From Anaerolineaceae bacterium (GTDB lineage Bacteria; Chloroflexota; Anaerolineae; Anaerolineales; Anaerolineaceae), in NCBI GenBank assembly GCA_016927865.1, contig JAFGLU010000063.1:1-37288 (forward strand): 37,288 nt of DNA, in the 5' to 3' direction. Below the pieces are notes generated by a model, which was not told the DNA's origin, ran no database searches, and was given only the letters and a program-made list of their open reading frames with translations. Of the stretch, positions 2,690 through 26,239 are shown one piece after another; the stretch's first letter is position 1, and every line of letters begins with the position of its first letter. A program made the translations under genes and the position numbers.

Positions 2690-2715
2690 CGGTCATTCGA
2701 AAAAACACGAAACGT

Positions 2716-3663: not shown

Positions 3664-3708
3664 AGAGGGTCGCGCACCTCTCCAGAATCGTTTTTCTTTT
3701 CTCACCTC

Positions 3709-7351: not shown

Positions 7352-7370
7352 TCGGTCGCTCGTTCCAAAC

Positions 7371-7416
7371 ATCAATCCGCCGCCGCATGGAATAAACCAT
7401 TCGGCGGCGGATTGAT
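7371..7416. terminator. Strong hairpin between convergent genes
   Basis: A perfect 15-bp stem (7371-7385 with 7402-7416) encloses a second short stem (7387-7390 with 7397-7400) and an A/T loop. There is no clear T tract on either side, so it may be a poor intrinsic terminator or an mRNA 3'-end stabiliser shared by the ABC operon and the GH94 gene. Confidence 0.6.
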
Positions 7417-7447
7417 TCCTAATTGACAACCCAGCCTATAAACGGGG

Positions 7448-9835
7448 TTATTTCAACTTAACATGCACGACAACGTCCTTGCCTCCACGGGGCTGGAAAG
7501 GCACTATGTTTCCCTCCACCGGTTTTCCGTCCACGCTCATCTCAACATTGTTCCCCGGCCCCACTCGTTCAACAGTGATCAGATACACGGTGTCGCGGAA
7601 CACCCGCGTAGCCGAAAAACCTTTCCAGTTTCTCGGAATGATCGGTTGCACCATCAACCCGCCGAACGTTGGCCGAATTCCCAAAATGTATTGAGTCCCG
7701 GCTACATACGTCCAGGATGCCGTCCCTGTCAGCCAGGCATTCCTCCCGCGCCCAAAATAAGGATGCGTTGGTCCGCAAACGTTCTGGCAATAAACGTACG
7801 GCTCAACCTGGTAATGATCGTAATTCTCTTTTGTCAGCGGCATCACCTGCTGATAGTACTGGTACGCGCGCTCATTCCAACCCATCATCGCCGCAGCAAC
7901 CATTGCCCACGTGTTGGCATGACAGAAAATCCCGCCATTCTCCTTCGATCCAGGCGGGTAAGTGCTGGTACCTCGCACCCGCTCATTCGTGCCGTCGTAA
8001 GGAAGATGCATCAACGCCACGCCCTCAGCCGTGTTCAAGTGTTGATGCATGCTTTCTAATGCCCGCGCTGCCCGGTCTGGCGGAGCTGCCTCGCCGATCA
8101 CAGCCCAGGTCTGCGTATTCATATTGATCCAGTGGAATTTCTCGCCTTTCACCCCCACCGGGTTGCCATCATCGTCAAAGGCCCGTGTATACCAATCCCC
8201 ATCCCAGGCACAGTCATTGATCGCTCGAACCATCTCGTCTTTCAAGTCTCTGAAACGCGCAGCTTCCTCGGATTTTTCCAAGTACTCGCATAAATCGGCA
8301 AAGTCGAGCAACGTCCGGCAGAATTGTTGCGCCACCATCACGCTCTCTGCCTTGCCGCTGCCATGATCCAGGTTCATCGTATCGTCCCAATCCGAGAACC
8401 CGGCCCGCGGCAGTCCGTGCGGTCCGCGATGATTGAGGGTGAAATTAATCGCCCGCAGCATGTGATTCCATACACTGTCCTCGCCACCATCCGTATACGG
8501 GATCACTTCGTCCAGATAGTGGAAATCGCCGGTCTCGCGTAGATAGGCGCAAACGGCCATCACCAGATATAGATGATCATCGCTGAACCACTGCGGCCAT
8601 TCCGGGTACTCATTCGCCAGCCCTGCGCCGCCTTCTCCAGTCAGCGGCATCACCTGATGCCAGGCATGCCCATCCTGGAACTGTAGCTTCCACAACATGG
8701 TCAGCGTGCTCCGAGCCTTGTCCGGAACCGTATGCACCGTGCCCAGCGTATCCTGCGCTGAATCTCGCGTCCCCATCCCGCGCCCCAGCCCCGTCTCATA
8801 ATAGGACACAAAACGCGACCAATACAGCGTGGCGCGGCATTGCACCTGATTCCAAAAATTCAACATCGCGTTCATGGCCGAATCTGGCGTTTCAACGGTG
8901 AACCGACTCAAGTAAGCTGCCCAATCCTCCTTCAATGCCTGGAAGGAAGCCGCGACCTCAGCCGGGTTCTGGAACCGTTGCACCACCGGCGCCGCGGCCG
9001 CCCGGTCATTCGTCACCCCCAGGATATACACGATCTGGCGTTCTTCCCCCGGCTGCAACTTCAACTCGTGACACAGCGAACCAATATTATTGGCCCGCGG
9101 CGCTTCCGAGTTATGCGGCTGACCCAACTCAACCACCTCTGGGTTGCTCAGATCACGATAGCGCCCCAGGAAGATTTCCCGGTCGCTGTCAAACCCCACC
9201 TGCTCGGCGCTGCTGCCAAAGAAAGTCGTCGCCGGGTTGAACTTTGTGGTGCAATAGATGACGCCGTCCTGGAAATTCGAAAACAGAATATGCGCGCCCC
9301 AATCCAGGTTGGTCATATCCACCAACGCATCCGGATATAAGAACTCCACGTAGCTAAACGAACGCAAGATGCGCTCTTGTTTACCCTCGTTTTTCACACG
9401 CAAAACCCACAGCTCGCAAGGCGCTGGGTCGCTCGCCGGAGATGGCGGCACAAAGTATAAGACCTCTGATCGAATCCCCTTGTAAACACTGGATATCCGC
9501 GTATATGCTGCGCCATGCCGGCACTCGTAGAAGTCCAATTTCTTGGCCGTCACCGGCTGCCAGGTAGGGCTCCAATAATCCCCCGTTTCCTGGTCCCTCA
9601 GGTAAATATACCGCCCCGGCTGATCCACCGGAATACCGTTGTAACGGTAGCGGGTTACTCGGCGATTCTTAGGGTCGCGATCAAAAGAATAACCGCCGGC
9701 AGTATTCGAAATAATCCCGCCATAACGGCCCTCTCCCAGATAGTTGATCCAGGGTGTAGGCGTATCTGGACGAGTGATAACGTACTCTCGGTTCGCTTCG
9801 TCATAATAACCGTAGGGATTCGAATGAGGTGGCAT
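7448..9835 (-). CDS. GH94 disaccharide phosphorylase (cellobiose phosphorylase-like)
   Basis: A glycoside hydrolase family 94 phosphorylase of 795 residues, close to the roughly 810 of cellobiose phosphorylases. It cleaves a beta-linked disaccharide with phosphate to give glucose-1-phosphate in the cytoplasm, saving ATP. Visible family blocks: YGYYDEANREYVITRPDTP and ISNTAGGYSF at the N-terminal beta-sandwich, TRYRYNGIPVD, YECRHG, ETGLGRGMGTRDSAQD in the barrel, SDWDDTMNLD (Asp482-Asp485, the region of the general-acid Asp) and TSTYPPGSKENGGIFCH near the phosphate pocket. These match cellobiose phosphorylase closely, but laminaribiose- or cellodextrin-type specificity is possible. ATG 9835 has GAGGAG 6 nt upstream; longer frames would run through the promoter. 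A CelR-like operator supports a cellulose or beta-glucan role. Confidence 0.88.
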   Translation of the reverse strand: MPPHSNPYGYYDEANREYVITRPDTPTPWINYLGEGRYGGIISNTAGGYSFDRDPKNRRVTRYRYNGIPVDQPGRYIYLRDQETGDYWSPTWQPVTAKKLDFYECRHGAAYTRISSVYKGIRSEVLYFVPPSPASDPAPCELWVLRVKNEGKQERILRSFSYVEFLYPDALVDMTNLDWGAHILFSNFQDGVIYCTTKFNPATTFFGSSAEQVGFDSDREIFLGRYRDLSNPEVVELGQPHNSEAPRANNIGSLCHELKLQPGEERQIVYILGVTNDRAAAAPVVQRFQNPAEVAASFQALKEDWAAYLSRFTVETPDSAMNAMLNFWNQVQCRATLYWSRFVSYYETGLGRGMGTRDSAQDTLGTVHTVPDKARSTLTMLWKLQFQDGHAWHQVMPLTGEGGAGLANEYPEWPQWFSDDHLYLVMAVCAYLRETGDFHYLDEVIPYTDGGEDSVWNHMLRAINFTLNHRGPHGLPRAGFSDWDDTMNLDHGSGKAESVMVAQQFCRTLLDFADLCEYLEKSEEAARFRDLKDEMVRAINDCAWDGDWYTRAFDDDGNPVGVKGEKFHWINMNTQTWAVIGEAAPPDRAARALESMHQHLNTAEGVALMHLPYDGTNERVRGTSTYPPGSKENGGIFCHANTWAMVAAAMMGWNERAYQYYQQVMPLTKENYDHYQVEPYVYCQNVCGPTHPYFGRGRNAWLTGTASWTYVAGTQYILGIRPTFGGLMVQPIIPRNWKGFSATRVFRDTVYLITVERVGPGNNVEMSVDGKPVEGNIVPFQPRGGKDVVVHVKLK

Positions 9836-9867
9836 TTGGATCTCCTCTGAGAAAATGTGAATATAGT

Positions 9868-9881
9868 TGGGAGCGCTCTTA
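9868..9881 (-). promoter_or_regulatory. CelR/CebR-like LacI-family operator of the GH94 gene
   Basis: TGGGAGCGCTCTTA matches TGGGAGCGCTCCCA, the known operator of the cellobiose-responsive LacI-family repressors CelR/CebR of actinobacteria, at 12 of 14 bases. It abuts and shares one base with the -10 hexamer and covers the expected start site, where a bound repressor would block transcription. No LacI-family gene lies in the window. Direct repression by such a protein is inference. Confidence 0.65.
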
Positions 9882-9886
9882 TTATA
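9881..9886 (-). promoter_or_regulatory. -10 element of the GH94 promoter
   Basis: A perfect TATAAT on the minus strand lies 45 nt before the GH94 ATG. No good -35 hexamer is seen 16-18 nt upstream, which suits a promoter relying on regulation or on an activator. Confidence 0.55.
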
Positions 9887-9928
9887 TACTTTTTCGCAAA
9901 GAATCAGATAGTTTTGATGTTCCCTAAT

Positions 9929-9969
9929 CTGAGGTGCGGGTGGATGATTCGCACTTACAAGCACCTCAG
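9929..9969. repeat. 9-bp inverted repeat upstream of the GH94 promoter
   Basis: CTGAGGTGC at 9929-9937 and its complement at 9961-9969 face each other across 23 nt. The site lies 43-83 nt upstream of the GH94 -10. It may be a binding site for a dimeric regulator or a weak hairpin; no known operator was recognised. Confidence 0.4.
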
Positions 9970-10026
9970 GCGATCATCTTTTGCACTGCTGCTTGAGTAG
10001 TCAAACCAGGGGCGATTAAACGAAGA

Positions 10027-10046
10027 GACCGCTCTTTCAAGCGGTC
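10027..10046 (-). terminator. Candidate terminator or attenuator hairpin
   Basis: A 7-bp stem (GACCGCT 10027-10033 with 10040-10046), extended by four more pairs after one mismatch, is followed on the minus strand by the T-rich TCTTCGTTT. It lies behind the small ORF and larger hairpin and could end a short leader or small RNA. Confidence 0.5.
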
Positions 10047-10057
10047 CCTTCTGGGTT

Positions 10058-10107
10058 GGCTGCGACACCCTCTAGATTATAGGACAATCAGGAGGGGTGT
10101 CGCAGCC
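10058..10107 (-). repeat. 13-bp hairpin overlapping the small ORF
   Basis: GGCTGCGACACCC (10058-10070) is perfectly complementary to 10095-10107. On the minus strand the first arm lies inside the 16-codon ORF and the second just past its stop, so a ribosome on the ORF would prevent the hairpin from forming. This resembles attenuation leaders, but no competing antiterminator was worked out. Confidence 0.55.
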
Positions 10108-10127
10108 GTACGCATACTACTTGCCAT
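10077..10127 (-). CDS. Candidate 16-residue leader peptide or small ORF
   Basis: The reading frame MASSMRTAATPLLIVL ends in TAA at 10077. AAGGAGG (10139-10145) lies 11 nt before this ATG and 5 nt before an in-frame TTG at 10133, which would add two residues. It starts about 50 nt downstream of a good promoter and is followed by two hairpins. No related protein is recognised. A regulatory leader peptide is the best reading, given its size and position, though the nearest downstream gene, GH94, has its own -10. It may instead be a chance frame inside a small RNA. Confidence 0.4.
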   Translation of the reverse strand: MASSMRTAATPLLIVL

Positions 10128-10189
10128 TTTCAACACCACCTCCTTGTCCTTAGGATAGCAAGGAGTGAACGATTGACCGTTCTGGAATT

Positions 10190-10218
10190 AGTATTGCATA
10201 ATCATCAGTCATTGTCAA
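10190..10218 (-). promoter_or_regulatory. Promoter of the structured leader
   Basis: On the minus strand TTGACA (10213-10218), a 17-bp spacer and AATACT (10190-10195) are preceded by TGC, an extended -10. The -35 is a perfect match. It faces the small ORF and hairpins rather than any large gene nearby. Confidence 0.6.
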
Positions 10219-10254
10219 GTTAGGTTTTTCTCAGTTTGCAAAACTGTCAAATGT

Positions 10255-11502
10255 TTACGGGACCATTAAGTGGGTAAATTTCCAGGACTCGCCTTCTTGC
10301 TCCACTTTTGATGAGGCCCCCAAAACCTCCACCCAGGTCTGCCCCGGCTTGAAAGCAAACGGCTGCCCGTCGGGTCCAACAATTGTCAACACCGAATCAT
10401 CGGTCGATCGATACCATCGCACCGCATAGATCTGTCCATCCCGAGCTAGGTACGCAGGCCCCGTTCCGCCTTGATACGTTGCCCCATCCGATGCCACATA
10501 CATTCCAGAATTTGGCGATAAGAAAATATCCAGTACTTCCATGTCTTCCGTCCGGTCAAAATACTGGTGCGGAGCCAGGATCATCAACAAGGATTCCACA
10601 GCGATGGGTTCGCCGGTTAATTGGTCGGTTAATTGAGCATAACTCGGATTATTGCGGTTAACATCGTCCTTCGTGTCCGCGAACCGCAAATACGTCCCGC
10701 TCTCCACGTCATAATCCCAGCGATTGTAAATTGCCCCTGAATAACGCACATAGACCTGTTCAGCAGTCTGCCCTCCAACAGGGGCTTCCAGCTTGAAGTA
10801 CATCCCGTCCAGATTCTGCCGCGAATTATCCACCCCGCGCAAAGTCAAATAGTCTCCCATTGCGCTCGTATCAGCCATCAAGTAGTTTCGCTTATTGGGT
10901 TCAAATCTGCACACCGCCGGGCACGATTGGTTAGTTTCCAATATCAGCCGGCTGGAATAATCGGCATTGAATAATCGTAAGCGTACTTTCTCATAAGCGC
11001 TCCCGAACACAAACACGCTCTTGTACATGCGGATCAGGTTATCATCGAAGAATCGGGCTGATCGAATCGGGCCGACCTGTTCCGCGTCCTGTCCATAGAA
11101 TACGGCCGCGAATCGGGTTCCCCCTAACTCTGTGTAATACTCAAACACAAGATCAGCCAACGATAACCCATATTGCGGGCGATGATCGCGCGGCAAATTC
11201 TCCACTTTTATGATCATCGGCCGTCGAGCCAGAATCGCCGGGTCGTCCACCTCTAACCCGGTCAGTGGGTTAACCTCTGCCGGGAAGCCACTGGGGCCCA
11301 TTCCTTCGGGCGGATAAAGCGGCGTTGGAGTAATGGTGGGCGTTTCTGTCGGAGCTGGCGTTGGCGTATCGGCGATCGTCGGCGTAATAGTCGGCGTCCT
11401 GATAGGCGGCTCCGGTGTAAAAGTGGCAGTCGGAGGCAGCGGCGTTGCCTGAGAACACGCCGAGAGAAGCAAGATGAATAAAACGATAACAGCACGTCGC
11501 AT
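10255..11502 (-). CDS. DUF3048 (YerB-like) lipoprotein
   Basis: A 415-residue lipoprotein: Arg-rich start, hydrophobic stretch and lipobox LLSAC with the lipidated Cys16, then a Thr/Pro repeat linker (about 20-65, TPTITPT units), then the DUF3048 domain. Landmarks are NPLTGLEVDDPAILARRP, VKVEN-like IIKVENLP, ADLVFEYYTELGGTRF, GPIRSARFFD and, in the C-terminal half, RWDYDVESGTYLRF and PGQTWVEVL. This is the YerB pattern, in which two related domains follow a lipid anchor; the biochemical function is unknown. It is expected to be anchored on the outer face of the cytoplasmic membrane. ATG 11502 is preferred over GTG 11508 because AGGAG lies 7 nt before it. Monocistronic, divergent from the DUF2085 operon. 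Confidence 0.85.
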   Translation of the reverse strand: MRRAVIVLFILLLSACSQATPLPPTATFTPEPPIRTPTITPTIADTPTPAPTETPTITPTPLYPPEGMGPSGFPAEVNPLTGLEVDDPAILARRPMIIKVENLPRDHRPQYGLSLADLVFEYYTELGGTRFAAVFYGQDAEQVGPIRSARFFDDNLIRMYKSVFVFGSAYEKVRLRLFNADYSSRLILETNQSCPAVCRFEPNKRNYLMADTSAMGDYLTLRGVDNSRQNLDGMYFKLEAPVGGQTAEQVYVRYSGAIYNRWDYDVESGTYLRFADTKDDVNRNNPSYAQLTDQLTGEPIAVESLLMILAPHQYFDRTEDMEVLDIFLSPNSGMYVASDGATYQGGTGPAYLARDGQIYAVRWYRSTDDSVLTIVGPDGQPFAFKPGQTWVEVLGASSKVEQEGESWKFTHLMVP

Positions 11503-11530
11503 GAGCACACTCCTTAACTGTATTCAACCC

Positions 11531-11560
11531 ATCATAACCCTGAAGAGTAGGAATCGTCAA
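11531..11560 (-). promoter_or_regulatory. Promoter of the DUF3048 lipoprotein gene
   Basis: TTGACG (11555-11560), an 18-bp spacer and TATGAT (11531-11536) on the minus strand, about 28 nt before the start codon. Confidence 0.55.
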
Positions 11561-11708
11561 CCGGACGCAACGAAGGGTCGTCACTCCCATAGACGTCGAT
11601 CCTGCCCCAGCGTTCCAACCAGATTGCAACCTTTTTTGAAAACCTCCGTATATAGTTTTAGAGAAAAGGATGAACGCCTGTAACGAAACCTCGTTGCCAT
11701 TATTCGGA

Positions 11709-11714
11709 TATAAT
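11709..11714 (+). promoter_or_regulatory. -10 element 6 nt before the DUF2085 start codon
   Basis: TATAAT at 11709-11714 puts the expected transcription start at or next to the ATG at 11721, so the mRNA would be leaderless. No clear -35 is seen. Confidence 0.5.
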
Positions 11715-11720
11715 GCCTCT

Positions 11721-12512
11721 ATGCGCCGACCGTTATTAATTGGACTATTGATTGTCGCTGTTGTTGCAATGGTGACAGGCTGGCTTCTTTTAACGCCCTC
11801 TGGCCTCTTGGGAAAAGCAGACGCCTTCGGCTACTCGGTTTGCCACCAGGCTCCCAGCCGTTCATTTGAAATCGGCGGACGACCGCTGCCTCTGTGTGCG
11901 CGCTGCTCCGGCACATTCCTTGGCACGCTGTTGGGGCTGGCTTACCTGAGCACGCTGGGCCGCAAAGCCGGCCTGCCCCCCATTCGCATCGCGGTAGTGT
12001 TAGTGGTCTTCCTGGGCGCATTCGCCGTCGACGGGTTGAACTCCTTTGTCCAAATCATCCCAGGCATCCCTTACCTTTACACCTCGCACAACTGGCTCCG
12101 CCTTGTCACCGGTACCGGTATTGGCCTGGGCATCGCTTCCATCTTGCTTCCCGTTGTCCATCAAACCTTTTGGACCCACTATACCGATAGCCCCTTGCTG
12201 GCAACCTGGAAACAAATGGGCATTATGCTCGGGTTGGCCGCCTTGCTCGACCTCGCCCTGCTCAGTGACAATGCGCTCATCCTCTACCCCCTGGCTGCTC
12301 TGAGCGGGTTAGCCGTCCCGATCATTTTAACGCTTATTTACACCGTACTCTGGGTACTGGTAACAAAACAAGAAAACAGGTATCATAGATTGAAAGATTT
12401 GTGGGTCCCGGCCCTCGCCGGATTCCTGACTGCCATGCTGCAAATATCGCTGATTGATGCTGGACGTTACTGGCTGATGGGGACCTGGGCCGGGATTCCG
12501 TTGATCAATTAG
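11721..12512 (+). CDS. DUF2085 membrane protein
   Basis: A 263-residue polytopic membrane protein with about six or seven hydrophobic segments. It carries the DUF2085 hallmarks CHQAPSRSF (Cys41, His42) and LPLCARCSGTFLG (Cys59, Cys62), a conserved Cys/His set that could bind a metal or cofactor at the membrane surface; the role of the family is unknown. The first helix (7-25) precedes this motif. The ATG at 11721 is chosen because TATAAT ends 6 nt before it and the 17 codons upstream look unrelated to the family. It starts a three-gene operon: the DUF4126 gene follows after 13 nt. Confidence 0.8.
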   Translation: MRRPLLIGLLIVAVVAMVTGWLLLTPSGLLGKADAFGYSVCHQAPSRSFEIGGRPLPLCARCSGTFLGTLLGLAYLSTLGRKAGLPPIRIAVVLVVFLGAFAVDGLNSFVQIIPGIPYLYTSHNWLRLVTGTGIGLGIASILLPVVHQTFWTHYTDSPLLATWKQMGIMLGLAALLDLALLSDNALILYPLAALSGLAVPIILTLIYTVLWVLVTKQENRYHRLKDLWVPALAGFLTAMLQISLIDAGRYWLMGTWAGIPLIN

Positions 12513-12525
12513 GAAAGAGGGAAGA

Positions 12526-13107
12526 ATGGATTTGTTAGGAATATTATCTGCCTTTGGGTTATCTGCCAGCGCTGGATTAAACGCATACATCCCGCTCCTG
12601 GTGGTGGCTCTACTGGGTCGTCTTACCAACTTGATCAAGCTGTCCGAGCCTTGGGACGCCTTGACCAGTTGGTGGATCATCGGCTTGCTCGCCGTGCTTT
12701 CGATAATCGAGTTCCTGGCCGACAGTTCGCCGGTCATCAATCACATTAACGACGCCATCCAAACCTTCGTCCGCCCGGCTGCGGGAGCCATCCTCTTTGC
12801 CGCCAGCGCCAACGTTATCACCGAAATCAGCCCCGTCCTGTCCATCGCCGCCGGGATTCTGATAGCTGGCGGAGTGCATGCCGTGAAATCTCTGGCAATC
12901 CGCCCTGTTGTTACCGCTTCTACAGGAGGCGCAGGCAACATCGCAATCGCCGCAGCCGAAGATATCACCTCGACATTGGTGTCCATTATTTCTGTTATTG
13001 TCCCGGCTTTGATCGCAATCGTCATCATCGCCGTGATTGCCTGGGTGATCTGGCGGCGAACGCATAGCCAGGCAGCCCCCCCACCGTCCATCGACTATAT
13101 TTCATAA
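12526..13107 (+). CDS. DUF4126 membrane protein
   Basis: A 193-residue membrane protein beginning DLLGILSAFGLSASAGLNAYIPLL, the conserved start of DUF4126, with the later segment RPAAGAILFAAS and a C-terminal helix ending in a basic stretch (WRRTHS). About five hydrophobic segments, including a long one near 160-182. Function unknown for the family. GAGGGA lies 4-5 nt before the ATG. It sits between the DUF2085 gene and the Pro-rich gene with gaps of 13 and 16 nt. Confidence 0.8.
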   Translation: MDLLGILSAFGLSASAGLNAYIPLLVVALLGRLTNLIKLSEPWDALTSWWIIGLLAVLSIIEFLADSSPVINHINDAIQTFVRPAAGAILFAASANVITEISPVLSIAAGILIAGGVHAVKSLAIRPVVTASTGGAGNIAIAAAEDITSTLVSIISVIVPALIAIVIIAVIAWVIWRRTHSQAAPPPSIDYIS

Positions 13108-13123
13108 CCTACAAGGAGCTTAT

Positions 13124-13669
13124 ATGACCGACCAACCGCAACAACAAGACGCCTCTGAAGAGAATCCCACCCAATTGTCTGGCGCACAGCCATACACCCC
13201 CGGTCCTGTTGAACCCGTAATCCCCGAACCTGAGCCCGTTGACCTTGAACCGGCAAAAGAACTGTTCGAGGTTCCAGCTGTCCCCGAACCTGTATTTGAT
13301 ATTCCCCAGGTCCCCGAGCCGGACTTTGAAGCCCCCAAAGCTCCTGAGCCAGTCTTCGAGGTTCCCCAAACGCCCGCCGAGCCCGTCTTCCAGACGCCTC
13401 CGGTCCCCGAACAATCCTTCACGCCGCCTCCGCCGGTAACCCAGAATTTCGCGCCGCCGCCCCCGCCGCCCAGCCAGTCCTTCAGCGCGCCTGCCGCACC
13501 TCCGCCCGCCAAAAAAGGCCTCTCCAAGGGCTGGATCATTGCCATCGTGGTGCTGCTCCTGCTGTGCTGCTGCTGCGTAGTATCTGTAGTTCTGGTGTCT
13601 ACTTACAGCGAAGCGATCATTGAGTGGTTCGAGGGCTACGCCCTGCAAGCGCTGACTTTGTTAGCCTGA
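13124..13669 (+). CDS. Pro-rich single-pass membrane protein with a Cys cluster
   Basis: A 181-residue protein not recognised as a named family. Residues 1-130 are acidic and Pro-rich, built from imperfect PEP[VD]F units (VPEPVFDIPQ, VPEPDFEAP, APEPVFEVPQ) and ending in an all-Pro run, so this part is probably disordered. One membrane helix follows (about 139-164, GWIIAIVVLLLLCCCCVVSV) with four consecutive cysteines at its centre, then a short tail. No signal peptide, so the Pro-rich part is presumably cytoplasmic. AAGGAG lies before the ATG; it is the last gene of the operon, followed by a terminator. Similar layouts occur in uncharacterised Chloroflexota proteins; function unknown. Confidence 0.7.
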   Translation: MTDQPQQQDASEENPTQLSGAQPYTPGPVEPVIPEPEPVDLEPAKELFEVPAVPEPVFDIPQVPEPDFEAPKAPEPVFEVPQTPAEPVFQTPPVPEQSFTPPPPVTQNFAPPPPPPSQSFSAPAAPPPAKKGLSKGWIIAIVVLLLLCCCCVVSVVLVSTYSEAIIEWFEGYALQALTLLA

Positions 13670-13689
13670 TACCCAACGCCTAAGTACAC

Positions 13690-13727
13690 AACAAAACACC
13701 CTGACCACCGCGTCAGGGTGTTTTGTT
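13690..13727 (+). terminator. Strong terminator closing the DUF2085 operon
   Basis: A perfect 16-bp stem (13690-13705 with 13712-13727) with a 6-nt loop. The distal arm runs into TTTTGTTTTC, and the A-rich proximal arm gives the mirror-image signal on the other strand, so it could act in both directions. Confidence 0.85.
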
Positions 13728-13810
13728 TTCTCTGGTTCATTGGGACTTGGTGTGGAGAAATCCGAATCTTGGAGTAATTACGGCAACTTCCAGAGAGTCG
13801 TTTTCTGGGT

Positions 13811-13840
13811 TTGATGTAACGTTGCTCCATACGCTATAAT
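13811..13840 (+). promoter_or_regulatory. Promoter of the helicase-nuclease-recJ operon
   Basis: TTGATG (13811-13816), an 18-bp spacer and TATAAT (13835-13840). The -10 ends 7 nt before the ATG at 13848, so the message is expected to be leaderless. Confidence 0.6.
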
Positions 13841-13847
13841 CATCTCA

Positions 13848-15959
13848 ATGAACTGGACCCGCCCTCAACGCGCCATTCTCGATCTACCCTCCGGCAGTCG
13901 GGCTTTTGTCACCGGCCCAGCCGGCAGCGGCAAAACCACCGCCACCACCCAACACCTGCTCGACCTGCTGTCCTCGGGTGTCCCCGGCGCTTCCATCCTC
14001 CTCCTCGTCCCTCAGCGCACCCTCGCGAGCTCCTATCAGGCTGCCCTTCGCACGCCTGGGGCCGCCGCAGGAGGACAGGTCGATATCCTCACCCTGGGCG
14101 GCCTGGCCCGCCGGATGGTTGACCTGTTTTGGCCCCTCATCGCCCACGACGCCGGATTTGCCCACCCCGTCCTTCCACCCACCTTCTTGACCCTCGAAAC
14201 CGCACAATACTACATGGCCCACCTCGTCCGCCCTTACCTGGACCAGGGTTTCTTTGAATCGGTCAGCATCGACCGCAACCGTTTATACAGCCAGCTTCTC
14301 GACAACCTCAACAAAGCTGCCATTGTAGGCTTCCCGCACACTGAAATTGGGGAACGACTTAAAAGCGCCTGGAGCGGCGAATCCAGCCACTTGCGCGTCT
14401 ATGATGATGTTCAAACCTGCGCCAGTGAATTTCGCCGCTACTGCCTGGAAAACAACTTACTCGATTTCTCCCTCCAGGTGGAACTGTTCCGCGAACGTCT
14501 GTGGCCTTCCCTCCTCTGCCGCGCTTACCTGCAAAACACCTACCGTCACCTGATCGTAGACAACCTCGAAGAAGACACCCCCGTCACGCATGACATCTTG
14601 AGCGAATGGCTGCCGGAATTCGATTCCGCATTGATGATCTACGACGAGGATGCCGGTTATCGCAGCTATCTGGGCGCCGACCCATCCTCTGGATTGGGAC
14701 TGCGCGACCTTTGCACCGACGAAATCTCCTTCACTGAGCCACTGGTCATCCCGCCCACGCTCGAAGGCCTTGGAGCCCGCCTGGGTCAAGTCCTCGACCA
14801 GGTCCAAACCCTGCCGCCCGGTCTGCCCGATGGCCTGGAGGCCCTCGATTATCCCCCCGAGCCGATCCGCTTCTTCCCCCAAATGCTCGATTGGGTTGTC
14901 GACCGGGTCGCGCAGCTTATAGATGAAGGTGTCCCTCCTGGTGAAATTGCCATCCTGGCCCCCGTCCTGCCCGATGCGTTGCGCTTTTCTCTTACCAACC
15001 GCCTGGATGAGCGCGGTATTCCCTACCGTTCCCATCGCCCTTCGCGTGCCCTCAGCGACGAGCCCGCGGCGCGCTGCCTCCTCTCTCTGGCCGAACTGGC
15101 TCACCCACAGTGGAATCGCTCTCCCTCCAAAGTCGAAATCACCTACGCCTTATTGCAAACCATTGCCGGTCTCGACCTGACTCGCGCACACTTGCTGACA
15201 GAAATTTGTTGCCGTATGCGTGAAGGCCGCCTGGTGCTCGAGCCTTTTGGCCGCTTGCGTCCCGACGCCCAATCTCGCATCACCTTCTCCATCGGCGAGC
15301 GCTATGAAATGTTGCGCAGTTGGATCGAAGCCTACGTTGCCGACCCCGAGGCCGAGCTGGATTACTTCTTCAGCCGCTTGTTTGGTGAAGTACTCTCTCA
15401 GCCCGGTTTCGGCTTTCACAGCGACCTAGATGCCGGGCAGGTTGCTGCTAACCTGGTCGAATCGGCCCAAAAATTCCGCTGGGCCATTGAAACCCGCGCT
15501 GAACCCATGGGGCAATCCCTGGGACAGGAATATATCGAGATGGTTCGAGACGGAGTCATCGCCGCCCAGTACATGGGCAACTGGCAGCCCCCTGCCGCAG
15601 ATGCGGTTTTCATCGCCCCTGCCTACACGTTCTTGATGAACAACCGCGCCGTAGATCATCAATTCTGGCTGGACGCCTCTTCCAACGCCTGGTTTGAGCG
15701 TCTTTATCAACCGCTCACTCATCCCTATGTTCTCAGCCGCGCCTGGACCCCCGGCCGAATCTGGACGGCCGCTGACGAATTTGAAGCCAATCGGGCTGTC
15801 TTGTACCGCCTGATTCTAGGCCTGCTCCGTCGCTGCCGGGTAGGCGTCCACCTCGGCCTAAGCGACCTCAACGAAGGCGGTTACGAGCAGCGCGGCCTGC
15901 TTCTCAAAGCCTTCTACCAGGTGCAGCTGGCCGCCGGAAAGGATCAAGCCAATGGCTGA
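13848..15959 (+). CDS. Degenerate SF1-helicase-like protein, AddB-type partner
   Basis: A 703-residue protein with an intact Walker A, GPAGSGKT (23-30), in a UvrD/RecB-like context (LLLVPQRTLASSYQAAL as motif Ia). The later motifs are decayed: the Walker B position reads LIVDNLEED (from 235) where a helicase has hVDExQD, and motif III reads YDEDAGYRSYLGADP where the pattern is GDxxQSIYxFRGADP, losing the Gln. Motifs V and VI are hard to place. An N-terminal Walker A followed by a dead helicase core is the layout of AddB, but the AddB nuclease domain is absent; a separate nuclease is encoded two genes downstream. It probably binds ATP and DNA and serves as a scaffold or recognition subunit in a helicase-nuclease complex. 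Overlaps the next gene by 8 nt. Confidence 0.6.
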   Translation: MNWTRPQRAILDLPSGSRAFVTGPAGSGKTTATTQHLLDLLSSGVPGASILLLVPQRTLASSYQAALRTPGAAAGGQVDILTLGGLARRMVDLFWPLIAHDAGFAHPVLPPTFLTLETAQYYMAHLVRPYLDQGFFESVSIDRNRLYSQLLDNLNKAAIVGFPHTEIGERLKSAWSGESSHLRVYDDVQTCASEFRRYCLENNLLDFSLQVELFRERLWPSLLCRAYLQNTYRHLIVDNLEEDTPVTHDILSEWLPEFDSALMIYDEDAGYRSYLGADPSSGLGLRDLCTDEISFTEPLVIPPTLEGLGARLGQVLDQVQTLPPGLPDGLEALDYPPEPIRFFPQMLDWVVDRVAQLIDEGVPPGEIAILAPVLPDALRFSLTNRLDERGIPYRSHRPSRALSDEPAARCLLSLAELAHPQWNRSPSKVEITYALLQTIAGLDLTRAHLLTEICCRMREGRLVLEPFGRLRPDAQSRITFSIGERYEMLRSWIEAYVADPEAELDYFFSRLFGEVLSQPGFGFHSDLDAGQVAANLVESAQKFRWAIETRAEPMGQSLGQEYIEMVRDGVIAAQYMGNWQPPAADAVFIAPAYTFLMNNRAVDHQFWLDASSNAWFERLYQPLTHPYVLSRAWTPGRIWTAADEFEANRAVLYRLILGLLRRCRVGVHLGLSDLNEGGYEQRGLLLKAFYQVQLAAGKDQANG

Positions 15960-18198
15960 GATCCGCCTACGCCCAAGCCAGGAAAATATCCTCGCCTTTA
16001 CGGGCGGGCGCATGGGCATTTCCGCCGTGCCCGGCGCCGGAAAAACCTTCACGCTCTCACTGTTAGCCGCCAGATTGCTGGCTTCCCGCGCTTTAGGCCC
16101 CGAGCAAGAAGTGCTCATCGTCACCCTGGTCAACTCCGCTGTCGATAACTTCGCCGCGCGCATCTCCGGCCTCATCCGCCAGACACGGCTCATGCCCAAC
16201 TTTGGCTACCGCGTGCGCACCCTGCATGGCCTGGCTCACGATATTGTCCGCGAGCGCCCCGAGGCCGTTGGCCTGGCCAATGACTTTCAAATCGTCGACG
16301 AGTCTGAAGCCACACGCATCCTCCACGATGTCGCCCTGGCCTACCTGCGCTCCAACCCCGACCTGATCGAAAGCTATCTCAAACCGGATCTCACCGAGGT
16401 TGACGCCCAAAAGCTGCGCCGGGATCGCATCCCCGACCTCGTCGAATCGATCGGCTTGCAAGCCATTCGGTATGCGAAGGATCAAGAACTCTCTGCCGAT
16501 GACCTTCGGCAACGATTAGATGAACTGCCATTACCGCTGCCCTTGGCTGGAATGGGCTGTGCTCTCTACGCCGACTATCAGCGCGCCCTCAATTATCGTG
16601 GAGCCGTTGATTTTGACGACTTGATCCGCCTGGCCTTGCAAGCCCTCAAAACCGATGAGCAGTTGGTCCTGCGCTTGCGCAATCAGTGGCCCTTCATCCT
16701 CGAGGATGAAGCCCAGGACTCCAGCCACCTGCAGGAAGAAATCCTCAACTTGCTGGCTGGCCCGGGCGGCAACTGGGTGCGCGTCGGCGATCCCAACCAG
16801 GCCATATACGAGACCTTCACCACGGCCAACCCCGAATACCTGTTGGAATTTCGCCGCCAGCCCGGCGTTCGCGACGAAGACCTACCCGAATCGGGCCGCT
16901 CTTCCGCCAGCATCATTGACCTCGCCAACCATCTCATCGCCTGGTCCAACACCCCCCAGGCTCCTGAAGCACTCCAAGGCGCGCTCATCCCCCCCTACAT
17001 CCAACCCACCGCGCCTGACGATCCCCAACCCAACCCGCCCAATCGACCCGAACTCATCTACCTTCACGAAAAAAAGCTTGAAGCCGCTAAAGAAATTGAA
17101 ACCATCGCCGCTTCAGTCAAACGATGGTTGGAAGTGGAAGAGAACCAACAGCGCACAGTGGCCGTTCTGGTACCACGCAACGCCCGCGGCAGCGAACTGG
17201 CCGAAGAACTCAAGCGACTGGGCGTGGATGTGGTCGATACGCTGCTCAAAACCACCACCGCCACGCGCCAATCCGCCGGGGCCATTGCCAACGTGCTGCG
17301 CGCCCTGGCCGATCCGCTCAATGGGCACAAGCTCAGCCGGGCGTATCGCTCCTGGCGCGGCAAAGTGGAAGATGACAGCAAAAAAGTCGTCGAACGGGCC
17401 GCCTCTCATCTTCATCGTATGATGCGCACCGAAGATTACCTGGCCCCTCTCCCCGGCGAGGACTACCTTGAGAAGATTGGCCTGCACACCACCGACGAGC
17501 CGGCTTATCACGAATTGGCCGCCTTCCGCGAATCCGTCCGCCGCTGGCAGGCCGCCGTCCTCCTGCCCATCGACCAGCTCCTTCTCACCCTCTCACAAGA
17601 CCTGTTCACCGAACCTGCCGACCTGGCTGTCGCCCACAAAATGGCCGGCGCGTTACGCCAGCGCACGCACGAGCACCCCGATTGGCTGCTCCCCGACCTG
17701 ATCGGCGAGATCGAGGAGATCGCCACCAATAAGCGCAAGTTCCTCGGTTTCAGCAGCGATGACACGAACTTTAATCCCGATGACTACAAAGGCCGAGTTG
17801 TCATTGCCACCATCCACAAAGCAAAAGGCCTCGAATGGGATCGCGTCTATCTCATGTCCGCCAACAACTACGACTTCCCCTCCGGCGCCCCATACGACAC
17901 TTTCATCTCAGAAAAATACTTTATCCGCGACCGCCTCAACCTGGAAGCCGAAGCCCTTGATCAGCTCCGCGTCGTTGTCCACGGTGATCCGGAAGATTGG
18001 TACGAGGAAGGCCACGCCACCCAACGCAGCCGCATCGATTACGCCCGCGAGCGCCTGCGCCTGCTCTATGTCGGCGTGACCCGTGCTCGCCAGGAACTGG
18101 TCGTCACCTGGAACGGCGGAAAACAAGGCCAGGCCGTGCCCGCCACACCCTTTGTCGAACTGATTAATTTTTGGGAGAGCCTGCATGGACACCGCTAA
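15952..18198 (+). CDS. UvrD/AddA-like SF1A DNA helicase
   Basis: An ATP-dependent 3'-5' DNA translocase/helicase of 748 residues with all key motifs: Walker A AVPGAGKT (25-32), Ia VTLVNSAVDNF, Walker B LEDEAQDSS (Asp252-Glu253), motif III GDPNQAIYETF (279), motif V IATIHKAKGLEWDRV (about 617) and motif VI LLYVGVTRAR (about 703). It stops soon after motif VI, so unlike AddA it has no C-terminal nuclease domain. AAAGGA precedes the ATG, which overlaps the upstream gene by 8 nt; its own stop overlaps the nuclease gene by 14 nt. Such coupling suggests fixed stoichiometry in a complex with the flanking proteins. Expected role: unwinding of broken DNA ends for recombinational repair. Confidence 0.88.
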   Translation: MAEIRLRPSQENILAFTGGRMGISAVPGAGKTFTLSLLAARLLASRALGPEQEVLIVTLVNSAVDNFAARISGLIRQTRLMPNFGYRVRTLHGLAHDIVRERPEAVGLANDFQIVDESEATRILHDVALAYLRSNPDLIESYLKPDLTEVDAQKLRRDRIPDLVESIGLQAIRYAKDQELSADDLRQRLDELPLPLPLAGMGCALYADYQRALNYRGAVDFDDLIRLALQALKTDEQLVLRLRNQWPFILEDEAQDSSHLQEEILNLLAGPGGNWVRVGDPNQAIYETFTTANPEYLLEFRRQPGVRDEDLPESGRSSASIIDLANHLIAWSNTPQAPEALQGALIPPYIQPTAPDDPQPNPPNRPELIYLHEKKLEAAKEIETIAASVKRWLEVEENQQRTVAVLVPRNARGSELAEELKRLGVDVVDTLLKTTTATRQSAGAIANVLRALADPLNGHKLSRAYRSWRGKVEDDSKKVVERAASHLHRMMRTEDYLAPLPGEDYLEKIGLHTTDEPAYHELAAFRESVRRWQAAVLLPIDQLLLTLSQDLFTEPADLAVAHKMAGALRQRTHEHPDWLLPDLIGEIEEIATNKRKFLGFSSDDTNFNPDDYKGRVVIATIHKAKGLEWDRVYLMSANNYDFPSGAPYDTFISEKYFIRDRLNLEAEALDQLRVVVHGDPEDWYEEGHATQRSRIDYARERLRLLYVGVTRARQELVVTWNGGKQGQAVPATPFVELINFWESLHGHR

Positions 18199-19048
18199 AC
18201 GCCGCCTGGATACCCTCGACCCCAAACAGGCTTTCGCCTTCTCTCAAGCCGCCTTGCAGGACTATCAGGAATGCCGCCGCCGCTTCCAACTGCGCTACCT
18301 GCTCCAGGCTGCCTGGCCCGCCCCCCAGGCTGAACCCGTCCGCGAGCACGAGCGTCAAATTCGCCGCGGCGAGCGTTTCCACCGCCTGGCCCAGCAGGCC
18401 CTCCTGGGCGTGCCCCTCGACCGTTTAGACGCTGTCGCTGCTGCCGACTCGGACGAACACCTTGCCCAATGGTGGCAGAATTTCACCCGCCTTTTACCCG
18501 AATTGCAGGGCGAACAGCGTTATGTCGAAACCCTGCTCAGCGCTCCATTAGGTCGCCATCGCCTGGTCGCCAAATACGACCTGCTGGTCTTGTCTCCCGG
18601 TCCTAAACTTGTGATTTACGACTGGAAGACCGGACTCAAGCGCCCCCGCCGCGCCTGGCTAGAAAAACGCAGTCAGACCCGTGTCTACCCCTACCTGGCC
18701 GTAAAAGCTGCCGCGGGGCTCCGGTCTGGCCTCTCGCTTCTCCCCCAACAGGTCGAAATGATCTACTGGTTTGCTGCCCATCCGGGTCAACCTGAGAAAA
18801 TCTTGTACACGCCTGAACAATACGAAAAAGACGAGCGTGATCTTCTAGGCCTGGTGCATGAGATTGACTCTCTCTCGTCGAACCAGTTTGACATGACCAT
18901 CGAGGAGCGTGCCTGCCAGTACTGCGTGTACCGCTCCTACTGCGCCCGTGGGGCTGCCGCCGGCTCCCTCACCGAAAGTGACGAAGAGTTCGAGCCCGAG
19001 GGCGAAATCACCATCGACTTCGACCAGATCGCCGAGATCAGCTTCTAA
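18185..19048 (+). CDS. Stand-alone PD-(D/E)XK nuclease with AddB-type Fe-S cysteines
   Basis: A 287-residue RecB/AddB/Cas4-family nuclease. FSQAALQDYQECRRRFQLRY is the typical entry motif; His66 lies in GERFHRLAQ; the metal site is AKYDLLV (Asp132) with VIYDWKTG (Asp146, Lys148), followed by the QxxxY motif at Gln164-Tyr168. Cys30 near the start and Cys244, Cys247 and Cys253 (C-x2-C-x5-C) near the end reproduce the four-cysteine pattern that holds the 4Fe-4S staple in AddB. It then ends in an acidic tail. By family knowledge it cuts single-stranded DNA produced by the helicase. GGGAGAG precedes the ATG, inside the helicase gene; recJ starts 2 nt after its stop. Confidence 0.85.
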   Translation: MDTAKRRLDTLDPKQAFAFSQAALQDYQECRRRFQLRYLLQAAWPAPQAEPVREHERQIRRGERFHRLAQQALLGVPLDRLDAVAAADSDEHLAQWWQNFTRLLPELQGEQRYVETLLSAPLGRHRLVAKYDLLVLSPGPKLVIYDWKTGLKRPRRAWLEKRSQTRVYPYLAVKAAAGLRSGLSLLPQQVEMIYWFAAHPGQPEKILYTPEQYEKDERDLLGLVHEIDSLSSNQFDMTIEERACQYCVYRSYCARGAAAGSLTESDEEFEPEGEITIDFDQIAEISF

Positions 19049-19050
19049 GA

Positions 19051-21363
19051 ATGAGCGCGTGGATCGAATTGCCCCACCCCGAAGTGCCCGCCGCCCTCGC
19101 TGAATTTGTCGGCGGGCATCCCTTGGTCGCCCAAACCCTTTTCCGTCGCGGCATCACCACCCCCGAAGCCGCCCGTGCCTTTATCGATCCCAACGCCTAC
19201 TCACCCGCTCCCCCCGAAGATCTCCCCGACCTGTCCCTCGCCGCTGACCGTCTCGAGCATGCCATCCGTCAGGGTGAATCCATCTGGGTATGGGGCGACT
19301 TTGACGTGGACGGGCAAACCTCTACATCACTGTTGGTCCAAACCCTGCGCTTGCTTGGCGCAGACCCTGGTTACCACATCCCCGTGCGTGCCCGCGAATC
19401 CCACGGCATCAACATCCCCAACCTCGAGCCCATTATTGCCGCCGGCGCCAAATTGCTGCTCACCTGCGACACGGGCATCACCGCCCACGAATCCATTGAC
19501 TACGCGAATTCCAGAGGTCTCGAAGTCATCGTCACCGACCACCACACCCTCGCCGACACCCTTCCTCCGGCCCTGGCCTGCGTCAATCCCCGTCGCTTGC
19601 CCCCAAACCACCCCCTGGGACCCTTGCCCGGCGTGGGAGTCGCTTACAAGCTGGCCGAAGCGCTCTTCCGCCGCTTTAATCCCACCGCCGAAGCCGATCA
19701 ACTTTTGGACCTCGTCGCCCTCGGCATCGTCGCCGATGTGGCCCTTCAAACCGGCGACTCCCGCTATCTGCTCCAGCGCGGCCTGGCTGCTCTGCGCAGC
19801 ACCCAGCGCGCCGGTCTAAAAGCCATCTACGAACTGGCCGAACTGGACCCCACCTGGTTGAGCGAGGAGCACATTGGTTTCCTCCTCGGGCCACGTCTCA
19901 ACGCCCTGGGCCGCCTGGATGATGCCAACCCCGCCGTGGAGTTGTTCACGACTGGCGACCCAGGCCGCGCCCGTGTGCTGGCCGTTCACCTGGAAGGGCT
20001 CAACGCCCGCCGACAGTTACTCACCAGCCAAATCCTGGGCGCCGCTCAGAAACAAATCGAGCACGATCACTCCCTGCTCGATTCACCCGTCCTGGTACTT
20101 TCGCACCCCGAATGGCCCGCCGGGGTGGTCGGCATCGTCGCCAGCCATCTGGTCGAGCGCTACCAGCGCCCGGTCATCCTGCTCTGCACGCCCCCCGGCC
20201 AATTGGCGCGTGGCTCGGCTCGCTCCGTAGAGGGCATCGATATCACCACCGCCATCGCATCCCAAAAGTCACTGCTGGCTGGCTTCGGCGGTCACCCCAT
20301 GGCAGCCGGGCTTTCCCTCGACCCCGAGAACCTACCCGCTTTCCGCCGGGGGCTCTCCCGGCAAGTCAATAAACTCATCCAATCTACCGGCCTGGCCCGC
20401 GAGCCCCGCCTAGAGATTGATGGCTCCATCCGTCTCGAGGAAATTACCCTCGACCTTGTGGCCGATCTCGAGCGTCTGGCTCCCTTCGGTGCGGGCAATC
20501 CGGCCCTCGTGCTTTCCATCAAAGAGCTCACCCTGGTCAAACAGACGGTGATTGGTCGCGATCAGGCTCATCGTTCGCTGACAGTGCAAGATCAGGCCGG
20601 GAACTTGCAAAAAGTGGTCTGGTGGGGCGGCGCAGCCTGGCCCGTTCCTGAATCCAGGTTCGATCTTGCCTGCGTGCTGCGTGCCAGCAATTTCCGCGGA
20701 CAACGCGAGGTGCAAGTCGAATGGATCGATCACCGCCCGTTGGTCGAAACTGCCGTTGAGCTCTCCGGCCCTTCCCGCTCGGTTATCGATCACCGCGGGC
20801 AAGCCCACCCCCGCCCCTTGCTCGACGCGCTTCGCGATGCCGGGCCGCTGCTGGTCTGGGCCGAAAGCGAATCTCGTTCCACCCTCAACGCCCTGGATCG
20901 CTTCCACCTGGAGCCCGCTCCCTCGCTCGCCATCTGGACCACACCGCCCGGTCCCGAAGAACTTCACCTCGTCCTTTCGCAGGTCAACCCCCAGCAGGTC
21001 ATTCTATTTGGCGTCGACCCTGCCTCCGCCACCCCCGAGGAATTCATCAAGCGCCTGGTAGGGTTGGTAAAGTACGAGCTCAACCGGGTCGACGCCCCCC
21101 GCGCCGAAACCAGCCTTTCCCGCCTGGCTGGCGCCACCGCGCAACGTGTCACGGCTGTGCAAGCAGGCCTGGAATGGTTGCACGCCCGGAGAATGGTCAA
21201 CATAATCGAAATCCAGGATGACCGCATAATCCTCGAATACGGCTTAGGCCAATCTGCCGGTGATTCCGCTGTTCCTCTAGCCCAATTAAGGTCTATACTG
21301 GAAGAAACGGCAGCCTACCGCCGCTTCTTCTCCTCCGCCGATCCTGCCGCCATCCTCGACTGA
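19051..21363 (+). CDS. recJ: Single-stranded-DNA-specific exonuclease RecJ
   Basis: 5'-3' exonuclease on single-stranded DNA in recombination and repair, cytoplasmic and metal-dependent. DHH-family motifs: GDFDVDGQTS, LLTCDTGIT, VTDHHTLAD, and LVALGIVADVA; the DHHA1 domain shows GFGGHPMAAGLSL, and an OB-fold region follows (about 450-560). At 770 residues it is longer than the E. coli enzyme (577) and near Firmicutes RecJ, with a C-terminal extension of about 190 residues. No ribosome site is obvious, but the ATG is 2 nt behind the nuclease stop, so translation is likely coupled. Its place directly behind the helicase-nuclease genes suggests joint end resection. Confidence 0.93.
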   Translation: MSAWIELPHPEVPAALAEFVGGHPLVAQTLFRRGITTPEAARAFIDPNAYSPAPPEDLPDLSLAADRLEHAIRQGESIWVWGDFDVDGQTSTSLLVQTLRLLGADPGYHIPVRARESHGINIPNLEPIIAAGAKLLLTCDTGITAHESIDYANSRGLEVIVTDHHTLADTLPPALACVNPRRLPPNHPLGPLPGVGVAYKLAEALFRRFNPTAEADQLLDLVALGIVADVALQTGDSRYLLQRGLAALRSTQRAGLKAIYELAELDPTWLSEEHIGFLLGPRLNALGRLDDANPAVELFTTGDPGRARVLAVHLEGLNARRQLLTSQILGAAQKQIEHDHSLLDSPVLVLSHPEWPAGVVGIVASHLVERYQRPVILLCTPPGQLARGSARSVEGIDITTAIASQKSLLAGFGGHPMAAGLSLDPENLPAFRRGLSRQVNKLIQSTGLAREPRLEIDGSIRLEEITLDLVADLERLAPFGAGNPALVLSIKELTLVKQTVIGRDQAHRSLTVQDQAGNLQKVVWWGGAAWPVPESRFDLACVLRASNFRGQREVQVEWIDHRPLVETAVELSGPSRSVIDHRGQAHPRPLLDALRDAGPLLVWAESESRSTLNALDRFHLEPAPSLAIWTTPPGPEELHLVLSQVNPQQVILFGVDPASATPEEFIKRLVGLVKYELNRVDAPRAETSLSRLAGATAQRVTAVQAGLEWLHARRMVNIIEIQDDRIILEYGLGQSAGDSAVPLAQLRSILEETAAYRRFFSSADPAAILD

Positions 21364-24523: not shown

Positions 24524-24892
24524 CTAACCACCCTTGCGTTCGCCATATAAAACCCAGTGCCCTTTTCGATCACCAGCATTCCCCGGAGAGCGGTCGTAAT
24601 ACACCTCAAAAATCCGTCCACACTCTACCCGCACACGAAAATAATACCTACCCACGCCCCACGAGCCACGCAGCCTTGCTCGCGCCGCGTGTTCTGGCTG
24701 CATGTTGCGCTCCATTTTTCCCCGACGTCGAAAGTCGCGCCACTCTGCCAACAATTCGATTACCCGAAAATGCTCCCCTGCCCAGGTAAACCCGTTTGGG
24801 CAAGGCGGGTCTTTCTCCAACAACGGTGGCAGGTCGAAATCAACCTCGATGGCTTCAGAAATAAACCGAAAAGAAAGCGGTTCTAGTTCCAC
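24524..24892 (-). CDS. DUF6504 small protein
   Basis: A 122-residue protein resembling DUF6504: hydrophobic/aromatic motif GFTWAGEHFRVIELLAEWRDF, a spacer, then GVGRYYFRVRVECGRIFEVYYDRS and GHWVLYGE. By family knowledge such domains occur alone or at the C-terminus of Y-family polymerase-like proteins (ImuB), which hints at DNA repair. It starts with GTG at 24892, 10 nt before the upstream radical SAM gene ends (24883), so it is translated by coupling. Its gene partner supports a DNA-related role. The family call is from memory of the motif pattern and is moderately sure. Confidence 0.65.
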   Translation of the reverse strand: MELEPLSFRFISEAIEVDFDLPPLLEKDPPCPNGFTWAGEHFRVIELLAEWRDFRRRGKMERNMQPEHAARARLRGSWGVGRYYFRVRVECGRIFEVYYDRSPGNAGDRKGHWVLYGERKGG

Positions 24893-26058: not shown

Positions 26059-26080
26059 CGATCCCGCTCCCTGGTATTGC

Positions 26081-26108
26081 TTTATACCCATGTATCTACT
26101 CTCCACAA
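26081..26108 (-). promoter_or_regulatory. Promoter of the radical SAM/DUF6504 operon
   Basis: TTGTGG (26103-26108), a 16-bp spacer and TATAAA (26081-26086) on the minus strand; the -10 is followed by GGGAG (26067-26071) and the ATG at 26058. Confidence 0.5.
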
Positions 26109-26184
26109 TTGGACTTTTCACCATTGGTTTGAGTAGTTTGACAATGCCACTTTCAAACGCCATGGCCTCTAAACTCGGGTGTTG

Positions 26185-26204
26185 CCCCCACCCTACCCTC
26201 CCCC
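26185..26204 (-). other. G-quadruplex motif (minus strand)
   Basis: Four G runs of 5, 3, 3 and 5 separated by 1-2 nt on the minus strand, about 75 nt upstream of the radical SAM -35. Confidence 0.7.
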
Positions 26205-26239
26205 GGCAACCAAGATGTTCAATCACTTAAGCGTTTTGC

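Follow-up and report, generated by a model that had tools for sequence, protein, structure and literature searches.

What kind of enzyme is encoded by a run of overlapping helicase and nuclease genes in an Anaerolineaceae bacterium (Chloroflexota; assembly GCA_016927865.1, contig JAFGLU010000063.1, positions 1 to 37,288, the whole of this 37,288-nucleotide stretch being called the window below)? A preliminary description, made from the letters alone, took three consecutive open reading frames (ORF1, ORF2 and ORF3) for an AddAB-like helicase-nuclease distributed over three polypeptides, and suggested that it may be the main end-resection enzyme of the lineage. We find that these three genes and a long recJ paralogue directly downstream form a conserved four-gene module, with one further occurrence on a plasmid from a different phylum. 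Our judgement tips slightly towards reading this cassette as an AddAB/AdnAB-like DNA-end resection module that lacks a 3'-strand nuclease, is built from separate polypeptides and works with RecJ mainly to remove the 5' strand.

ORF1 matches were found in 40 of 61 relatives. Among 399 genomes drawn from the phylum, 59 carry an ORF1 match above 400 bits, all of them among the 77 genomes that share at least the class of the window, and the 322 genomes from other classes have none above that score (best 44 bits). In a set of 80 Anaerolineae genomes (83 chosen from these relatives and the phylum draw, minus G005, G041 and G054; completeness at least 90% save for the window's own genome), ORF2 is present in 51, of which 50 also have ORF1 and 44 have ORF3, while none of the three was found in the remaining 29 at the thresholds used. 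The presence of ORF1 and ORF2 agrees in 79 of the 80 genomes; in the exception, G031, the ORF2 match is a fragment at the beginning of a contig. The association of ORF1, ORF3 and the long RecJ with the cassette was assessed by Fisher tests. Identity to the window proteins within the order ranges from 29 to 66% for ORF1, 36 to 62% for ORF2 and 27 to 57% for ORF3. The titles of the best 80 of 534 confirmed candidates in a contig database name taxa that we take to be Chloroflexota, the membership of some genera being assumed.

The arrangement of the genes is conserved as well. We counted loci with at least 6.5 kb of sequence downstream, with ORF2 at most 1.5 kb, ORF3 at most 4.5 kb and RecJ at most 6.5 kb downstream of ORF1. 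Within the order, these genes follow ORF1 at 26, 25 and 20 of 28 loci, respectively. The corresponding numbers are 33, 27 and 19 for 45 loci from the contig database (drawn from 80 that were fetched) and 6, 4 and 1 for 13 class-level loci; the three sets overlap in some genomes. Several genomes have dispersed the genes yet retained them, among them G047 and G359, where they lie at 2.216, 0.198 and 1.029 Mb of one contig. At none of 140 loci are two of the three families joined in one ORF. Co-occurrence and gene order, a check across Anaerolineae that the preliminary description had proposed, support it on this point.

A search of 72,556 plasmid records yields a single ORF1 match with query coverage of 80% or more, on plasmid pSR56 of the Rhodothermota member Salinibacter ruber M8 (44% identity, 97% coverage). 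Positions 10001–17884 of this plasmid (NC_014028.1, L278) carry ORF1, ORF2, ORF3 and recJ in the same order and strand as in the window, annotated as a hypothetical protein, an ATP-dependent helicase, a PD-(D/E)XK nuclease family protein and RecJ. Each of the four has its best match, at 43–47% identity, among the Anaerolineae copies, and the plasmid RecJ groups within the long RecJs. All four genes keep their order on this plasmid from a different phylum, so they travel as a unit, and this joint presence is the strongest indication that they form one functional set. A distant ORF1 relative annotated as UvrD-helicase is found on the Ilyobacter plasmid pILYOP01 (L279, 7998–9971; 23% identity, 63% coverage), with no ORF2- or ORF3-like neighbour in the annotation.

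ORF2 is an intact UvrD-like helicase without a nuclease domain, as first described. It matches the Pfam families UvrD-helicase (149 bits) and UvrD_C, no nuclease domain is among its Pfam matches, and it contains all seven of the UvrD motif patterns searched for (AVPGAGKT, RTLH, ILEDEAQD, GDPNQAIY, SGRS, TIHKAKGLE and LLYVGVTRA). None of twelve tested positions varies among 33 homologues. The NCBIfam AddA models score only 66–67 bits against ORF2 (cut-offs 708 and 861), a weak test given that the resident AddA proteins of G047 and G008 also fall under the cut-off.

ORF1 is a helicase-fold protein whose Walker B motif and motif III have been replaced. It passes the Pfam UvrD-helicase model weakly (27 bits, cut-off 23), falls below the cut-off of ADDB_N (21.8 against 26.6 bits) and does not match the NCBIfam AddB models. 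An AlphaFold2 model (predicted local distance difference test score, pLDDT, 89.4; predicted template modelling score 0.86) shows a complete superfamily 1A (SF1A) helicase fold. Among the best 50 of 874 rows of a Foldseek search, UvrD, AddB and AdnB are matched over nearly the whole length, with template modelling scores (TM-scores) normalized to the query of up to 0.60 for AddB and 0.64, the highest, for AdnB. The concern that ORF1 might instead resemble an unrelated P-loop family, raised in the preliminary description, is not supported by this search.

The Walker A residues G28 and K29 of ORF1 are invariant in 37 aligned homologues. In an alignment with PcrA, the DEYQD of PcrA stands opposite D-N-x-E-E of ORF1, so that the Walker B motif has changed from DExQD to DNxEED and the catalytic glutamate is now asparagine. 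All 37 homologues share N239, E241, E242, D266, G270 and R272, and position 238 is aspartate in 32 and glutamate in 5. Five of these six (not R272), as well as K29, are also unchanged in nine sequences, among them the plasmid copy and copies from distant members of the class. The motif V pattern was searched for in the window ORF1 and was not found. The preliminary description was right that Walker A is kept, but Walker B and motif III, which it called decayed, are replaced by residues that are equally invariant. Such invariance argues that ORF1 has been repurposed and is not decaying, and its site probably binds ATP but does not hydrolyse it.

ORF3 is a separate PD-(D/E)XK nuclease with the four cysteines typical of AddB, in agreement with the initial assignment. 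It matches Pfam PDDEXK_1 (92 bits, E = 1e-25), and C30 and C244-x2-C247-x5-C253 are invariant in 29 of 29 homologues, as are G62, H66, E115, D132, D146, K148, Q164 and Y168. These cysteines presumably hold an iron-sulphur cluster. In profile comparisons, the alignment of ORF3 to the resident AddB nuclease spans 229 columns, cysteines included (E = 1.6e-11), but that to the AddA nuclease spans no more than 47 (E = 1.5e-4). The closest structural match to the predicted ORF3 model (pLDDT 85.9) is the AdnA nuclease domain (7sjr_A, query TM-score 0.60), followed by the Argonaute-associated Cas4-family protein ACE1.

The fourth gene encodes a RecJ that extends about 210 amino acids beyond the RecJ OB domain and retains the DFDVDG, DHH and GHPMAAG motifs. 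A second RecJ of 566 amino acids is encoded elsewhere in the same genome (contig C5, L280). In a tree of 35 rows, long (752–845 amino acids) and short (564–612 amino acids) RecJs form two clades, a split with support 100 on both sides in a core-only tree of 34 rows that omits L298. The long form is found in 40 of 51 cassette genomes but in 0 of 29 genomes without the cassette (Fisher p = 9e-13); this count was taken from search listings (11 of 20 plus 29 of 31), with fragments counted for G042, G055 and G412. The short form, sometimes as a fragment, is present in all genomes but G056 and G415, which show the long form only. Length as such is not unique, since solved RecJ chains of 666–757 amino acids exist. 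The three-polypeptide set of the preliminary description is incomplete, with the long RecJ as a fourth partner.

These parts suggest how such a module could work. The two nucleases of AddAB divide the work, that of AddA acting on the 3'-ended strand and that of AddB on the 5'-ended one; in a current model, Chi works by preventing the 3' strand from reaching the AddA nuclease (both described in PMC4824097). Bacterial RecJ is described as degrading single-stranded DNA from 5' to 3' (PMC5615345). In the cassette, ORF2 would be the 3'-5' SF1A motor and ORF1, with its ATP-site lysine kept, a non-hydrolysing scaffold or strand-handling partner in place of AddB or AdnA. ORF3 would be the counterpart of the AddB or AdnA nuclease, cutting the 5'-ended strand. 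The 3'-strand nuclease, which is the C-terminal domain of AddA, is absent, with a dedicated 5'-3' single-strand exonuclease, RecJ, supplied instead. An AddB/AdnA-type nuclease, the lack of an AddA-type nuclease and an extra RecJ together point to resection mainly of the 5' strand, which would leave a 3' overhang for RecA, like AddAB after Chi but without a destructive phase. From sequences and predicted models we infer complex formation, the polarity of the motor, strand choice, the role of ORF1 and its loss of ATP hydrolysis, and the role in recombination.

In the window's own genome, 84.5% complete, a search with PF00580 returned only PcrA, ORF1 and ORF2, and PF12705 returned only ORF3 and a 177-amino-acid Cas4-like frame. 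In support of the preliminary description, no AddA-, AddB- or RecB-sized protein was found there or in the congeners G001, G002 and G004 (99% complete), which add just smaller UvrD-like or Cas4-like proteins. In all four genomes the AddA model matches only PcrA and ORF2.

Several observations, however, weigh against an end-resection module of the AddAB type. The set is not always whole: ORF3 was not found in 7 of the 51 cassette genomes and the long RecJ in 11 (G012 has a 335-amino-acid fragment only), and three genomes of one genus (G199, G315 and G328) keep ORF1 and ORF2 with neither ORF3 nor long RecJ found. In three of the genomes without ORF3 (G012, G042 and G412) the ORF2 match is itself partial, truncated where the contig ends in G012 and G412; in the other four (the three of one genus and G286, which has a weak 104-amino-acid PF12705 fragment) it is not. 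Profile scores are at least as good for PcrA as for the AddAB subunits (ORF1, 116.3 for PcrA and 115.9 for AddB; ORF2, 372 for PcrA and 347 for AddA), and AddB ranks only 32, 34, 35 and 38 among structural matches of ORF3 (E = 2e-3 to 6e-3). Moreover, 15 of the 51 cassette genomes also encode an AddB-sized nuclease (PF12705 at least 100 bits in a frame of at least 1000 amino acids), and NurA was found in all eight genomes searched for it, the window's own included. Frames below the threshold, such as one of 958 amino acids and 91 bits in G315, are uncounted. In 14 of the 15 genomes an AddA-sized frame (more than 1000 amino acids) adjoins the AddB-sized one; the contig truncates the frame in G271. 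This coexistence makes another primary job for the cassette possible.

One such job would be at gaps and stalled forks, in a module of the RecF-pathway type in which ORF1–ORF2 act like RecQ, the long RecJ widens gaps and ORF3 trims flaps, with double-strand ends left to AddAB or HerA-NurA. The coexisting AddB-sized nuclease and NurA would fit such a division of labour, as would a dedicated RecJ in the gene cluster, an ORF2 profile closest to PcrA and the three genomes that retain ORF1–ORF2 only. Against this, a four-cysteine nuclease of the AddB/AdnA type together with an inactive helicase-fold partner is typical of end-resection enzymes and not of RecQ-RecJ. We consider a gap or fork module unlikely, though it deserves more weight than the other alternatives below.

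The AddB-sized nuclease is about as frequent with the cassette as without it (15 of 51 and 7 of 29 genomes; Fisher p = 0.80), so replacement of AddAB by mutual exclusion is not supported. Neither cassette nor AddB-sized nuclease was found in 22 of the 80 genomes (for example G034), whose completeness is at least 92%; break repair in these presumably rests on other systems. Given the coexisting AddB-sized nucleases, these 22 genomes and NurA, the suggestion that the cassette is the main end-resection enzyme of the lineage is not supported. The cassette does not exclude AddAB from a genome, nor is it shown to be the principal system.

A separate question is whether the module arose from AddAB by splitting, with ORF1 and ORF3 derived from AddB and ORF2 from AddA after loss of its nuclease. 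The set of parts is the same, ORF1 aligns with AddB across 530 columns in addition to its sub-threshold ADDB_N match, and ORF3 aligns with the AddB nuclease, cysteine pattern included. The trees point elsewhere. In the nuclease-domain tree, ORF3 (29 rows, support 91), AddB (99), AddA (99) and Cas4-like proteins (88) each form their own group, so that ORF3 stands apart from the resident AddB and AddA nucleases and also from 14 resident Cas4-like proteins. In the helicase tree, ORF1, ORF2, AddA, AddB and PcrA form five groups with support of 99–100 each, ORF1 and ORF2 being separate clades with long stems and support 100. Both trees were built by a quick method with references from this class only, the helicase tree from a sample of rows, and their deep branches are unsure. 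Since the cassette proteins occupy separate clades and PcrA profiles match at least as well, a literal split of AddAB is not supported, contrary to the descent implied in the preliminary description, and a recent split of the resident AddB and AddA is set aside on the same placement. That AddAB persists beside the cassette in many genomes also speaks against it, and we regard descent from a split AddAB as improbable.

A helicase-nuclease pair in G037 (L106) was considered as a parallel split. Judged by eye, positions 2027–13786 there encode a HerA-like ATPase, a NurA-like protein and a UvrD-like helicase overlapping a Cas4-like nuclease, followed by type III Mod/Res-like proteins. With these HerA-, NurA- and Mod/Res-like neighbours, the region is probably a defence island, and the pair was set aside. 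A frame of 1247 amino acids was seen in G048 (L107).

In a defence or mobile-element role, the cassette itself would break down foreign DNA in the manner of Gabija (GajB), UvrD-Cas4 fusions or ACE1. Its patchy presence (51 of 80 genomes), the plasmid-borne Salinibacter copy and the rank of ACE1 as second-best structural match of ORF3 are in keeping with this, and many GajB models match ORF2 and some match ORF1 weakly, although such matches are expected of any UvrD helicase. On the other hand, the cassette clusters with recJ. No PADLOC match was found in the eight flanking window proteins, no GajA model is among the matches listed (for ORF2, the best 25 of 51), and no GajA, Mod/Res or Argonaute was recognised by eye in the window ORF lists, no dedicated search for them having been made. 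ORF1 has no match in phages, and none of 194 pattern matches in viral contigs was confirmed; a phage origin of the cassette was accordingly rejected. Taken together, we think a defence role quite unlikely.

How does the proposed resection module compare with known systems? Each of AdnA and AdnB carries motor and nuclease in a single chain. The cassette resembles AdnAB in having two SF1A helicase folds and a PD-(D/E)XK nuclease, in the AdnA nuclease as best structural match of ORF3 and in AdnB as the highest-scoring match of ORF1 (within the Foldseek rows given above). However, by Pfam neither helicase chain includes a nuclease; the nuclease is free-standing and the only such nuclease in the set, and a RecJ paralogue is added. 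RecBCD also consists of three polypeptides, one of them an inactive helicase-fold subunit, but the cassette has a single intact motor, with no second one corresponding to RecD and no nuclease fused to a motor as in RecB. With AddAB, the cassette shares one functional motor and one motorless helicase-fold subunit, as judged from motifs and model, and the four-cysteine signature of the AddB nuclease. Resident AddB similarly lacks the Walker B glutamate (VDGFD in the consensus, placed by hand). The cassette differs in having no C-terminal nuclease on the AddA-like chain, a nuclease in a chain separate from the AddB-like one, three chains in all, clades of its own relative to class references and an AddB-sized nuclease beside it in some genomes. 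Like RecQ-RecJ, it would pair a 3'-5' helicase, as predicted for ORF2, with RecJ, but ORF2 is of the UvrD type and two further partners are present. ORF3 does not group with the small Cas4-like proteins.

A two-gene operon of an unfused UvrD-like helicase and a Cas4-like (pfam12705) nuclease, mostly in Clostridiales, has been predicted outside a defence context, with DNA repair suggested as its role (PMC5704561). Section 8 of that paper includes no inactive helicase and its main text does not contain the term 'recj'. The pre-synaptic systems named in PMC6452273 are AddAB, RecBCD and AdnAB, and we found no description of the four-gene cassette in our searches of open-access papers.

More tentatively, and with doubt outweighing confidence, the cassette may be a transferable four-protein resection machine whose architecture would form a fourth class next to RecBCD, AddAB and AdnAB. 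Motor, scaffold and nuclease would be separate chains, RecJ would be an integral part and a 3'-strand nuclease would be missing, leaving the machine permanently in an 'after-Chi' state and independent of Chi. The three described bacterial end-resection architectures each join a nuclease to a motor chain. If the proposal is true, the cassette would represent an evolutionary separation of resection from DNA destruction, and would allow a direct test of the separate purposes of the inactive helicase subunit and the 3'-strand nuclease. That AddAB-type and NurA nucleases occur in the same genomes as the cassette, and that a copy of it exists on a plasmid in another phylum, raises the question of why a cell should keep several resection systems.

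The layout of the locus is given in Table 1. The coordinates confirm three overlapping genes with overlaps of the lengths first described, but the unit does not end at 19048, since recJ also belongs to it. At 36 loci, with starts picked by script, ORF1 and ORF2 overlap in 29, by exactly 8 nucleotides in 17, which suggests translational coupling. A sigma-70-like promoter match lies just upstream of ORF1; however, the region has 2 such matches against a mean of 2.2 in shuffled sequences, so the match by itself is no evidence. Terminator matches in the region are likewise at shuffle level.

Table 1. Coordinates of the cassette genes and associated features in the window.
Feature	Position	Strand	Description
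Promoter match, sigma-70-like	13811–13840	+	10 of 12 positions
ORF1	13848–15959	+	703 amino acids; SF1A helicase-fold protein
ORF1/ORF2 overlap	15952–15959	+	8 nucleotides
ORF2	15952–18198	+	748 amino acids; UvrD-type SF1A helicase
ORF2/ORF3 overlap	18185–18198	+	14 nucleotides
ORF3	18185–19048	+	287 amino acids; PD-(D/E)XK nuclease, AddB/AdnA type
recJ, long paralogue	19051–21363	+	770 amino acids; starts 2 nucleotides after ORF3

Two further genes of the window deserve mention. Directly upstream of the cassette, positions 13124–13669 encode a very proline-rich protein of 181 amino acids with one hydrophobic stretch and no Pfam match at 0.001. Downstream, on the reverse strand, the product of positions 24883–26226 has a C-x3-C-x2-C cluster and a C-terminal region like a helix-hairpin-helix, and by eye it resembles a radical SAM protein with a DNA-binding tail.

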